DNA of 64,000 bases, taken from assembly GCF_004348825.1 (NCBI RefSeq), contig NZ_SMJU01000005.1:283747-347746 (forward strand), written 5' to 3'. The number at the start of each line of letters is the position of its first letter. Position 1 is the stretch's first letter. Source of the stretch: Arundinibacter roseus. GTDB taxonomy: Bacteria > Bacteroidota > Bacteroidia > Cytophagales > Spirosomataceae. Below, piece by piece: positions 49,879 through 52,743 of the stretch. The translations under genes and the position numbers were made by a program. The notes beneath the pieces were generated by a model that did not search any database, was not told where the DNA came from, and saw nothing but the letters and a program-made list of their open reading frames with translations.

Positions 49879-50829
49879 ATGAATATCGTTTTTTTGGATG
49901 GCTATACCCTCAACCCCGGCGACATGAGCTGGAACCCGCTGGAAACATTGGGAAATTTCACGGTATATGACCGCACCGCACCCGAAGACATCGTGACACG
50001 CGCATTGGATGCCGATATAGTTCTTTCCAATAAAGTAATGCTTTCTGCCGAAACTTTGCAGCAATTGCCCAAACTCCGGTACATAGGTGTGACAGCCACT
50101 GGATACAACAATGTGGATATTCAGGCTGCACAAAGGCTGGGAATTACAGTAACTAATGTTCGGGGATATAGCACACCGGCGGTTGCACAGCATACACTTT
50201 CGCTGCTTCTGGCGTTGACCAATCATACCGAGCTACACAGCCAAAGTACCCGGCAGGGCGATTGGGCGAATGCCAAAGACTGGTGTTACTGGAAAACCCC
50301 TTTGGTAGAACTTTCCGGGAAAACGATGGGATTGATTGGTTTGGGGGACATTGGAGCGCAGGTCGCCAAAATTGCTCTTGCCATGGGTATGCGCGTGTTG
50401 GCGCATCGAAAAAGTCAGCTACCGGCAGGGGCAGGTATTGAACTGGTAGCGTTGGAAACGCTTTTCCGGGAAAGTGACGTAGTGAGTTTGCACTGCCCGC
50501 TGACCGACGAAACGCGTGAAATTATCAATGCTGATTCTCTGGCTTTACTGAAAAAAACGGCTTACCTAATCAATACCGGACGTGGGCCGTTGATCCATGA
50601 AGGTGCGTTGGCACATGCGCTTCATGCCGGAGATTTGGCCGGTGCGGCTTTGGACGTTCTTTCCAACGAACCACCCAAAGCCGACAATCCGCTTCTCACT
50701 GCTCCAAATTGTATAATTACTCCACACATTGCGTGGGCTTTTCAGGAGTCCCGCATACGGCTTTTACAGCTTGTGGCGGAAAACATTGCGGCTTTTCAGC
50801 ATGGAGAGGCCATTAACGTAGTAAGTTAG
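49879..50829 (+). CDS. D-2-hydroxyacid dehydrogenase (hydroxypyruvate/glycerate type)
   Basis: 316-residue NAD-dependent dehydrogenase. The Rossmann motif GLGDIGAQVAKIAL is near residue 154, substrate-binding Arg in NTGRGPLIHEGAL, Glu in VLSNEPPK and catalytic His in TPHIAWAF. The overall pattern (VTATGYNNVDIQAAQRLGITVTNV) fits glycerate/hydroxypyruvate reductases. Its TAG stop interlocks with the TAA stop of the converging MerR gene (50826-50829). Confidence 0.9.
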   Translation: MNIVFLDGYTLNPGDMSWNPLETLGNFTVYDRTAPEDIVTRALDADIVLSNKVMLSAETLQQLPKLRYIGVTATGYNNVDIQAAQRLGITVTNVRGYSTPAVAQHTLSLLLALTNHTELHSQSTRQGDWANAKDWCYWKTPLVELSGKTMGLIGLGDIGAQVAKIALAMGMRVLAHRKSQLPAGAGIELVALETLFRESDVVSLHCPLTDETREIINADSLALLKKTAYLINTGRGPLIHEGALAHALHAGDLAGAALDVLSNEPPKADNPLLTAPNCIITPHIAWAFQESRIRLLQLVAENIAAFQHGEAINVVS

Positions 50830-51704
50830 TGAGCAGCCAATTGCATCAAATCTTCAATTTTATTAATCAAAATGGTATTTTCCGAAGGCTGAATATCCTG
50901 ACCAACGACCTGATAACCCGTTAAAAGGATAGTAGATTGAGGAAAATTAGCTGCCAGTTTGTCTACATAAGGCTGCACGTCGTTGCTGGAAGGAACCGAC
51001 GTAATAGCAGTAAAAATGTAGTCCGGCTTGTGAAGTTTGTAGGCAAACTCTATTTCATTAAAAGGCAGACTTTGCCCCAAATAAACCACTTTGTGATTGC
51101 GGGCCCGGATGATATAATTAGCAAAGAGCAGGCCCATTTCGTGCAGTTCACCTTCGGGTAGAAACAGCAGGAATTTTTTTGACGTTGGCAGTTGCTTCAC
51201 AACCTGACCATCAATAGCCACAATGACTTTCTGACGAATGAGATTTGTAATAAAATGCTCCTGAGCGGGGCCAATTGAGCCCGTTACCCAAAGCGTACCA
51301 ATGCGGCTCAAAAACGGATAGATGATGTGAATCATCGTATTTTCAAACCCAAATTGCAAAATATTGGTACTAATAATTTTCTCAAAACGCTCTTCGTCCA
51401 GATCAATCATCGAGATTGTGAGCGCATGTATTTGATCGGGGTAGCTTAATTTCCGGTCTGAAATAGTCATAACCTCGGCGTTGAGCTCGTCCGAAGTCAT
51501 TTTTGAAATTTCTGAAATTTTATATCCGTGCTCTTTCAGCAACGAAATATTCAGCACCAATTTCAGGTCCTGATCATCGTAAAGCCGAATGTTTGTGTCT
51601 GTCCGTTTGGGAGCAATAATGTTGTATCGCTGTTCCCAAATACGCAGCGTATGCGCTTTGATACCAGACAGTTGTTCAAGATCGCGGATTGAATAATTAC
51701 TCAT
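50826..51704 (-). CDS. MerR-type regulator with B12-binding domain (CarH/LitR-like photoreceptor)
   Basis: 292 residues. The N-terminal MerR winged helix (SIRDLEQLSGIKAHTLRIWEQRYNII) is followed by a B12-binding helical cap with the photoreceptor signature Trp139-x9-Glu149-His150, and a Rossmann cobalamin domain with ELHEMG (186-191), where His188 would be the lower axial ligand. In Thermus and Myxococcus relatives adenosylcobalamin makes a DNA-binding tetramer that falls apart in light, switching on carotenoid genes. The carotenoid gene cruF lies just upstream on the same strand. The family call is strong; light control in this organism is inference. Confidence 0.9.
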   Translation of the reverse strand: MSNYSIRDLEQLSGIKAHTLRIWEQRYNIIAPKRTDTNIRLYDDQDLKLVLNISLLKEHGYKISEISKMTSDELNAEVMTISDRKLSYPDQIHALTISMIDLDEERFEKIISTNILQFGFENTMIHIIYPFLSRIGTLWVTGSIGPAQEHFITNLIRQKVIVAIDGQVVKQLPTSKKFLLFLPEGELHEMGLLFANYIIRARNHKVVYLGQSLPFNEIEFAYKLHKPDYIFTAITSVPSSNDVQPYVDKLAANFPQSTILLTGYQVVGQDIQPSENTILINKIEDLMQLAAH

Positions 51705-51800
51705 GTCTAAATAGTGCTTTGAGGGTGTTTATCAATTTACTTCAAAATATCTTTCTCACGTGTCAACCTCAGCCTGTGAATCTCTGAAATCTGTTTAACT

Positions 51801-51852
51801 TAGGTTCTACATTAAACACAAAAGTAATCACTTTCGTGAACGAACCTACAAA
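51801..51852 (-). promoter_or_regulatory. Promoter of the CarH-like regulator with possible operator
   Basis: Minus strand: TTTG (51849-51852), 22-nt spacer, TACTTTTG (51819-51826). TAGGTTC (51801-51807) and GAACCTA (51842-51848) form a 7-bp inverted repeat flanking the -7 box, and the spacer holds TTCGTGAACGAA, a near-palindrome. MerR proteins bind such spacers, so autoregulation is plausible. Confidence 0.6.
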
Positions 51853-51955
51853 AACGAATTCTGTTCATGCTGCCACCACAGGATCATATTAAGTATAAGC
51901 AGTTTAGGCCTATTAATTGAAGAACAATCTTTTTGACAAATTGTTTAATTTGTTG

Positions 51956-52618
51956 TTAATCAAGGAGGTTAACCAGGTTATTTAGAGCAAAAAATAAAAA
52001 TTGCAGCAAGAGAAGCAGGGAAGCAATTGGGTTATTTTTTCGGAAGGGTAAATAGTAAAATACGGCAAATAAAGCGGCAGAAATAACGTACCAGGCAACA
52101 TAGTTTTGCAAAGGAATTTCCCCCAGATGCCACTGCCAGAAGTCCAGCCGAATCGCTACCGGTTCAATGAACACATCCAAAAAAGTCATGCAAGCTGCGG
52201 CAAGCAGAATTTTTACAGGTTTTGTGGTAGAAATTTTATCAACAAAACTGCCACAACAGTAAGTCAGGATCAGCCAATTGACCCCAATTACCACCGGAAC
52301 CTCCGCGATTTTCCATCCGAGTGCTGCGCCATAGGAATAATCGCCAAAAATCAGCCCGGTATGCACCCCGATTACTTCTACGAAAAAACCAGTCAGAAAT
52401 GCCATCAGGCAATATAGTCCAAAAGTTGGACGCCAATCGTCGTGAAAAAGCAGTAAAATGCCCAGCGAAGCCAGCAGGTTGAAAGGAATCAGGGGCTGAA
52501 AAAAGGGCAAAAGTACAGAAACATTGAGCCCCACCAGGCCGGCGAGGTACATCAAAGGAAGTATAATAAATAATACCCGGCGAACAGGTGGAGACAGGCG
52601 CAAAGCGGAACTGACCAT
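51956..52618 (-). CDS. cruF: Carotenoid biosynthesis protein, CruF family (DUF422)
   Basis: 220-residue membrane protein with about seven helices. The family core FVEVIGVHTGLIFGDYSYGAALGWKIAEVPVVIGVNWLIL and the later FLDVFIEPVAIRLDFWQW fit CruF, the 1',2'-hydratase that acts on gamma-carotene or related psi-ends during myxol- or flexixanthin-type pigment synthesis. The frame opens with TTG at 52624, the ATG at 52618 is preferred. It begins only about 20 nt past the tRNA-His terminator, so no separate promoter is obvious. The B12-type regulator is next downstream. Confidence 0.85.
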   Translation of the reverse strand: MVSSALRLSPPVRRVLFIILPLMYLAGLVGLNVSVLLPFFQPLIPFNLLASLGILLLFHDDWRPTFGLYCLMAFLTGFFVEVIGVHTGLIFGDYSYGAALGWKIAEVPVVIGVNWLILTYCCGSFVDKISTTKPVKILLAAACMTFLDVFIEPVAIRLDFWQWHLGEIPLQNYVAWYVISAALFAVFYYLPFRKNNPIASLLLLLQFLFFALNNLVNLLD

Positions 52619-52634
52619 ACGCAAATTGAATTAT

Positions 52635-52662
52635 AAAAAAAACCCCGACAGGCGGGGTTTTT
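52635..52662 (-). terminator. Terminator of tRNA-His
   Basis: Perfect 10-bp stem AAAAACCCCG/CGGGGTTTTT (52638-52647, 52653-52662) with loop ACAGG. On the minus strand it follows the tRNA by 6 nt and ends in a T-run. Confidence 0.9.
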
Positions 52663-52668
52663 AAAGAG

Positions 52669-52743
52669 GGAGAAAGACGGGGTTCGAACCCGCGACCTTC
52701 GGAACCACAATCCGACGCTCTAACCTGCTGAGCTACAATCTCC
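52669..52743 (-). tRNA. tRNA-His (anticodon GTG)
   Basis: Cloverleaf on the minus strand: D-stem GCTC/GAGC, anticodon stem TCGGA/TCCGA with loop TTGTGGT (anticodon GTG), T-arm GCGGG-TTCGAAC-CCCGT, and the extra G at -1 opposite C73 that marks tRNA-His. CCA is not encoded. The acceptor arms GGAGATTG and CTTTCTCC leave two adjacent U-U oppositions (5-68 and 6-67), which is odd for an essential tRNA. Confidence 0.92.

Follow-up and report, generated by a model that had tools for sequence, protein, structure and literature searches.

A CarH-type regulator in Arundinibacter roseus and its probable operator, a gapped dyad recurring before carotenoid and rhodopsin operons of Bacteroidota

The window analyzed here, a stretch of 64,000 nucleotides from Arundinibacter roseus (contig NZ_SMJU01000005.1, positions 283,747 to 347,746), contains a gene for a CarH-type regulator (carH) located directly downstream of a cruF-type carotenoid hydratase gene. 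In a preliminary description made from the sequence alone, this region was read as a light- and B12-controlled carotenoid locus, in which the MerR-family regulator would act on its own promoter and on cruF through the inverted repeat TAGGTTC/GAACCTA. The adjacency of the two genes on one strand, separated by 251 bp, was confirmed. The features of the locus are listed below by window position; papers are cited throughout by PubMed Central identifier and from extracts of their text.

50826-51704, minus strand: carH-type regulator gene, 292 amino acids, with a MerR winged helix-turn-helix (wHTH) domain (residues 4-71), a B12-binding_2 helical domain (93-160) and a Rossmann-like cobalamin domain
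51132-51149, minus strand: ELHEMG (residues 186-191) with H188, the expected lower axial cobalt ligand; His in 53 of 54 aligned rows
51255-51290, minus strand: W139-x9-E149-H150, the CarH cap over the adenosyl group; present in 54 of 54 aligned rows
51285-51287, minus strand: V140, placed by alignments where Thermus thermophilus CarH (TtCarH) has His132, the upper axial ligand of the light state
51792-51818, minus strand: weak dyad TGTTTAA-N13-TTAAACA, behind the -7 box; its half-sites agree with the recurrent operator proposed below, with a spacing of 13 instead of 16/17
51801-51848, no strand assigned: inverted repeat of TAGGTTC (51801-51807) and GAACCTA (51842-51848), real but judged to be a chance occurrence
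51819-51826, minus strand: -7 box of the TAnnTTTG type (TACTTTTG), 122 bp before the carH ATG; the flavobacterial consensus is given as TTGnTAnnTTTG (PMC3587595)
51956-52624, minus strand: cruF-type carotenoid hydratase gene, directly upstream of carH (PF04240, E 1.3e-27)

The regulator combines an N-terminal MerR DNA-binding domain (Pfam MerR_1, PF13411, E 7.7e-17) with a B12-binding_2 domain (E 3.4e-8), and the nearest solved structure is that of Thermus CarH/LitR (phmmer E 3.2e-20). An AlphaFold2 model (mean pLDDT 89.3, 37 aligned sequences) gave TtCarH with adenosylcobalamin (AdoCbl) as the top Foldseek matches (5c8e and 5c8d, E ~1e-15), at a TM score of ~0.6 over the whole chain and ~0.8 over the cobalamin domain; CtMerR and a photocobilin were likewise among the matches. 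The CarH equivalog NF052513 was the top model of the NCBIfam library, yet its score of 92.6 bits fell below the cut-off of 400, which places the regulator on a divergent branch. In a CarH alignment of 54 rows, 4 of them repeats of genes held in overlapping loci, the adenosyl-capping Trp, Glu and His were invariant and ExHxx[GPS] was conserved in 53. A published light signature (GxxW, EH, GxxH and GxxxP; PMC11796333) was complete, as GTLW (136-139), EH (149-150), GELH (185-188) and GQSLP (210-214). Pfam, phmmer and the motif positions agree with the preliminary description, which had placed the photoreceptor and cobalamin motifs at the same residues, and both motifs are kept in relatives. As far as its sequence tells, the protein is a divergent Bacteroidota variant of CarH that would work in a CarH-like manner. 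The sole exception in the alignment, encoded at locus L038 (genome G019) and 67% identical to the window protein, has Gln in place of H188 and keeps Wx9EH; it is a candidate cobalamin-independent or altered CarH.

No second full-length CarH-like gene was found in the 5.83-Mb genome. The same genome encodes a cobalamin adenosyltransferase (PF01923, E 9.5e-60) and contains one cobalamin (B12) riboswitch, which together make AdoCbl plausible as the ligand. Full-length relatives of the regulator were present in 50 of 59 genomes (its own and those of relatives), and any match in 53, including three weak MerR matches. By this gene, the nearest named relatives in the collection searched were Bacteroidota such as Rhabdobacter, Persicitalea, Telluribacter, Larkinella, Spirosoma and Runella, whose family we take to be the Spirosomataceae.

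On reading the promoters of carH orthologues, repeated TGTTTAA and TTAAACA half-sites were seen. The single half-sites TTAAAC/GTTTAA were mildly in excess upstream of carH (35 compared to 21.3 +/- 4.3 in 30 loci), and this excess led to a search for a gapped dyad. The recurrent form is TTGTTTAA-N16/17-TTAAACAA, with 8-bp arms and 32-33 bp in all. When spacing was scored at no more than one mismatch in 108 loci chosen by gene, 62 pairs had a gap of 16 and 12 a gap of 17, and no other gap between 0 and 40 had more than 6; with the half-sites in direct or everted order, the maxima were 13 and 4, respectively. The dyad has a near-invariant core, TGTTTA, which reads TAAACA on the opposite strand and in that form agrees with TnnACA, the half-site found in characterized CarH operators (PMC9304148).

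In the A. roseus genome, TTGTTTAA-N(12-18)-TTAAACAA has a single perfect copy, C40:206201-206232, whose gap is 16; a rhodopsin gene (PF01036, E 4e-42) begins 83 bp downstream of it. The rhodopsin gene is followed by the lycopene cyclase gene crtY (PF05834, E 1.2e-40) and by blh, encoding a Brp/Blh beta-carotene dioxygenase (TIGR03753, 154 bits, over the cut-off of 95). At up to one mismatch, seven dyads were found in the genome compared to two for a reversed control pattern: two at the rhodopsin operon, two at an operon of a sigma factor gene, crtI and crtB (C11:380437 and C11:380649), two at fasciclin genes and one at a TonB-dependent receptor gene. The two fasciclin-domain genes (L142:1599-2549 on C1 and L143:1604-2116 on C6) are unlinked, with one-mismatch dyads ending 66 and 71 bp before their starts, and may be regulon members; in another family, a perfect dyad at locus L164 precedes a gene 30% identical to the L142 fasciclin gene. 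The one-mismatch dyad at L146:1501-1532, directly before the TonB-dependent receptor gene, is either a chance match or marks a further regulon member.

The position of the dyad was then scored across relatives at no more than two mismatches and a gap of 16 or 17, over a stretch reaching from 400 bp before the called start to 130 bp within the gene. This stretch was set wide for targets and controls alike, as the sigma factor used as query has its start called ~22 codons too far upstream. In genomes with carH, the dyad preceded 35 of 48 scored crt operons (30/37 scored first and 5/11 later). It preceded 22 of 29 rhodopsin genes (22/27 and 0/2 read later), 9 of 39 carH genes of relatives and 0 of 22 of their cruF genes. 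Among other open reading frames it was found before 4 of 556, and these four lie in L050, L051 and L067, themselves carH loci. The counts 30/37 and 22/27 include the genome of the window. Among 21 rhodopsin sites with a gap of 16, 17 start 104-126 bp before the start codon. The dyad was also found between carH and crtI in three divergent carH clusters that have no sigma gene (L122, L123 and L129).

The samples behind these counts were as follows. The rhodopsin search gave 40 matches and 30 loci; 27 loci were scored first, with L186, L188 and L193 left out for having no recognized helix-C motif. The two rhodopsins read later, that of G085 (without carH) and a distant one of G004, had no dyad, and 29 of the 40 matches were scored overall. 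The crtB search gave 56 places, from which 37 loci, all of genomes with carH, were scored first. To these, 17 were added: 13 from genomes with carH (11 scorable, as G013 and G032 were cut by contig ends) and 4 from genomes without. The two remaining places held second synthases (L109 and G015:C24) and were left out; L121 (rhodopsin) and L130 (carH) are not crt loci.

Presence of the dyad tracks presence of the regulator. In a sample of 395 genomes from the class, 253 have a CarH-type gene (E 1e-40 or better) and 142 do not; the exact dyad occurred in 146 of the former and 4 of the latter, and the reversed control pattern in 5 of the 395. Fifty genomes with only a weak MerR match (E >1e-20) were counted as lacking carH, and at most six candidates were scored per genome, such that a few carH genes may have been missed. 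With one mismatch allowed, 99 relatives yielded 212 dyads compared to 67 control matches.

Taken with the protein, these sites make it likely that the regulator is an AdoCbl-dependent dark repressor, acting through the dyad and in trans on the genes for carotenoids, retinal and rhodopsin; we infer its binding, its repression and its control by AdoCbl and light. In the dark, AdoCbl-bound CarH would occupy TTGTTTAA-N16/17-TTAAACAA dyads as a dimer or tetramer at the sigma-crtI-crtB promoter, upstream of the rhodopsin-crtY-blh operon and before the two fasciclin genes, blocking transcription. Light would break the cobalt-carbon bond and CarH would leave the DNA, upon which carotenoids, retinal and rhodopsin, the light-driven proton pump, would be made together, all under the single full-length CarH-type protein of the genome. 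The dyad gap encloses a TAnnTTTG box at 11 of 31 sigma-operon sites; a protein bound there would cover the promoter and exclude RNA polymerase, which fits dark repression as in CarH. No TAnnTTTG box was found at a fixed place at the rhodopsin and fasciclin dyads, where the action of the dyad is less clear.

The carotenoid locus of the preliminary description is thus well supported as a CarH-type system tied to carotenoid genes, whereas its local operator and its direct control of cruF are not. From the sequence comparisons, the predicted scope widens from cruF to the crt and rhodopsin operons, and the recurrent dyad takes over as the putative operator. Across a large part of the Bacteroidota, we lean with more reserve towards a B12-based green-light receptor that would control the building of the light-harvesting apparatus, switching a regulon of rhodopsin, retinal, carotenoid and fasciclin genes through the 32-33-bp dyad, with a release that does not involve a bis-His state.

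Several observations weigh against this interpretation. Clear dyads are missing before 30 of 39 carH genes of relatives, before carH of the window itself and before all 22 cruF genes of relatives, so self-control would not be general and control of cruF is unsupported. In the cruF-carH region of the window, no dyad was found at up to three mismatches, the best matches having four to six. Of the scored crt loci in genomes with carH, 13 of 48 have no dyad, and 107 of 253 genomes with carH lack the exact form (weaker sites were not counted). Two genomes in which no carH was found have the dyad, perfect before the sigma-crtI-crtB operon in G010 (88% complete) and before rhodopsin in G012 (82% complete). 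Control matches outnumber true ones in 9 of the 99 relatives, and at up to three mismatches the signal is lost in the A. roseus genome (116 sites compared to 135 for the control). The association over the 395 genomes (odds ratio 47, Fisher p 2e-32) ignores shared ancestry. On the protein side, V140 stands in place of His132, and the SxV/T...GG part of the cobalamin motif (PMC8156234) aligns with T232-A-I234...T262-G263, conservative replacements in which the letters differ. An H132A variant of TtCarH was mostly still tetrameric after light in PMC10442372, a study that also cites an earlier report of disassembly.

These residues bear on an unlikely alternative, though the most probable of those considered: a dyad-binding protein that reads cobalamin status, or acts independently of cobalamin, and responds little to light directly, since a bis-His state could not form. 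At the His132 place, the 54 rows have V18 Q16 M6 L4 T4 I3 A2 G1 and no His. Together with the behavior of H132A, the degenerate SxV/T...GG part and the Gln of the L038 protein, this speaks for such a reading. Against it stand the invariant capping Trp, Glu and His, and the example of CtMerR, which has Arg at the His132 place and yet goes from tetramer to monomer in light (PMC11796333). V140 hence does not exclude a light response, but the switch would then have to operate with no bis-His state, as that of CtMerR does with Arg.

A second alternative, which we regard as improbable, keeps the dyad and removes CarH from it: the site would belong to another regulator that travels with carotenoid genes, such as the sigma factor ahead of crtI, and CarH would be a mere neighbor. 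In many crt loci, the dyad is indeed followed first by the sigma gene, and the perfect dyad of G010 precedes a sigma gene in a genome where no carH was found. However, the symmetry of the dyad is that expected of a dimer and not of a sigma promoter, its core fits the published CarH half-site, and its presence follows carH over the 395 genomes. The dyads of the three sigma-free carH clusters and those before rhodopsin also count against the sigma factor. Among crt loci of genomes without carH, that of G010 has the dyad, whereas those of G029, G041 and G043 do not.

An activator of the MerR type, which would bend the promoter when bound and turn the genes on, is less probable again. The box inside the gap at the 11 sigma-operon sites has a MerR-like position, but characterized CarH proteins are repressors, and at 4 of 11 carH sites the TAnnTTTG box is overlapped by the left half-site.

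Local control of carH and cruF through the TAGGTTC/GAACCTA repeat, the model of the preliminary description, is very improbable. Although the window contains no second repeat of this kind, shuffled sequences give similar counts (three perfect 7-bp inverted repeats with spacers of up to 60 in the 251-bp gap, compared to 1.8 expected, and at least three in 29% of shuffles), the closest sequence in the 350 bp ahead of each of 29 orthologues differs from it at 3-5 of 14 positions, and TAGGTTC does not occur in the two stretches that hold the crtI-crtB and rhodopsin operons of the genome. The repeat was accordingly dropped as an operator and ascribed to chance. The weak dyad at 51792-51818 is a doubtful operator. 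As a direct target, cruF was likewise set aside.

The proposed system can be compared with characterized CarH proteins. With T. thermophilus CarH/LitR (PDB 5c8d, 5c8e and 3whp) it shares the MerR wHTH, four-helix and cobalamin domains, Wx9EH, ExHxxG, the association with carotenoid genes and the half-site TnnACA. The T. thermophilus operator consists of tandem 11-bp direct repeats, nnnnTnnACAn, whereas the putative site here is a dyad whose 8-bp arms are separated by 16/17 bp; the His132 equivalent is missing and, unlike in T. thermophilus, a rhodopsin-retinal operon is among the predicted targets. CtMerR of Chloracidobacterium thermophilum (PDB 8jbs/8jbt) shares a CarH-type cobalamin domain without the His132 ligand, with Arg there and Val here; its light response has been demonstrated (PMC11796333), whereas that of the present protein is a prediction, and the extracts named neither its operator nor its targets for CtMerR. 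CarH and CarA of Myxococcus xanthus and other myxobacteria have control of carotenoid operons and variable operator design in common with the system described here, but use direct-repeat operators, and no rhodopsin target was met in the extracts of PMC9304148 and PMC8156234; here a dyad and a rhodopsin target are predicted. In Vibrio campbellii, proteorhodopsin is likewise raised by light, although through RpoS1, a stress sigma factor and not a photoreceptor repressor (PMC3380642).

CarH homologues are described as broadly distributed (PMC8156234). In 2012, regulators of proteorhodopsin outside V. campbellii were called unknown (PMC3380642), and no regulator was identified for the light-induced carotenoids of a Chryseobacterium (PMC7064467). 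Among the matches listed from the open-licence literature, no title dealt with the recurrent dyad as an operator or with control of rhodopsin by CarH, and prior work elsewhere is possible; co-mentions of CarH and proteorhodopsin in that literature were, by the listing, incidental (for example, PMC12627116). With a regulator, a defined DNA site and a set of targets proposed, both the rhodopsin and the Chryseobacterium questions become directly testable. If the proposal holds, B12 supply would be tied to the decision to use light, in a CarH lineage whose response to light, if there is one, has to do without the bis-His state. Green algae have carotenoid-binding fasciclin proteins, whereas a cyanobacterial relative did not bind carotenoids (PMC10147662), so a pigment role for the two fasciclins here is a guess.

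Around carH, linkage to cruF is real: in 23 of 40 wide loci, cruF immediately precedes carH on the same strand, so the regulator does not neighbor unrelated genes throughout its relatives. The CruF-type protein of the window scores 84.8 bits against TIGR03460, under the cut-off of 154.7. Between cruF and a superoxide dismutase gene, the interval 52636-52742 contains a tRNA-His gene (52668-52742, minus strand) and a G+C-rich hairpin with a T run, the hairpin being recognized by eye. This separation suggests that cruF may be transcribed from a promoter of its own; at up to three mismatches, the interval yielded no dyad. Elsewhere in the genome, CrtI (L102:8272-9756, minus strand) matches the NCBIfam model CrtID, a bifunctional phytoene desaturase/3,4-desaturase, at 750.6 bits over a cut-off of 640. 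Combined with the presence of cruF, this match is a hint that the carotenoids are hydroxylated and in part acyclic.

More divergent carH homologues (36-50% identity) adjoin crtI-crtB in eight genomes, accompanied by a photolyase gene in 4/8, a Lycopene_cyc-type gene in 5/8 and a short crtZ-like gene in 7/8, all relatives of genes in the L122 cluster; the crtZ-like label was given by eye, as the short gene has no Pfam match. G050 (L051, L166 and L127) has two carH genes, one of 47% identity flanked on both sides by dyads and the other of 39% identity inside a crtI-crtB cluster, a pair whose sequences suggest two old branches of CarH.

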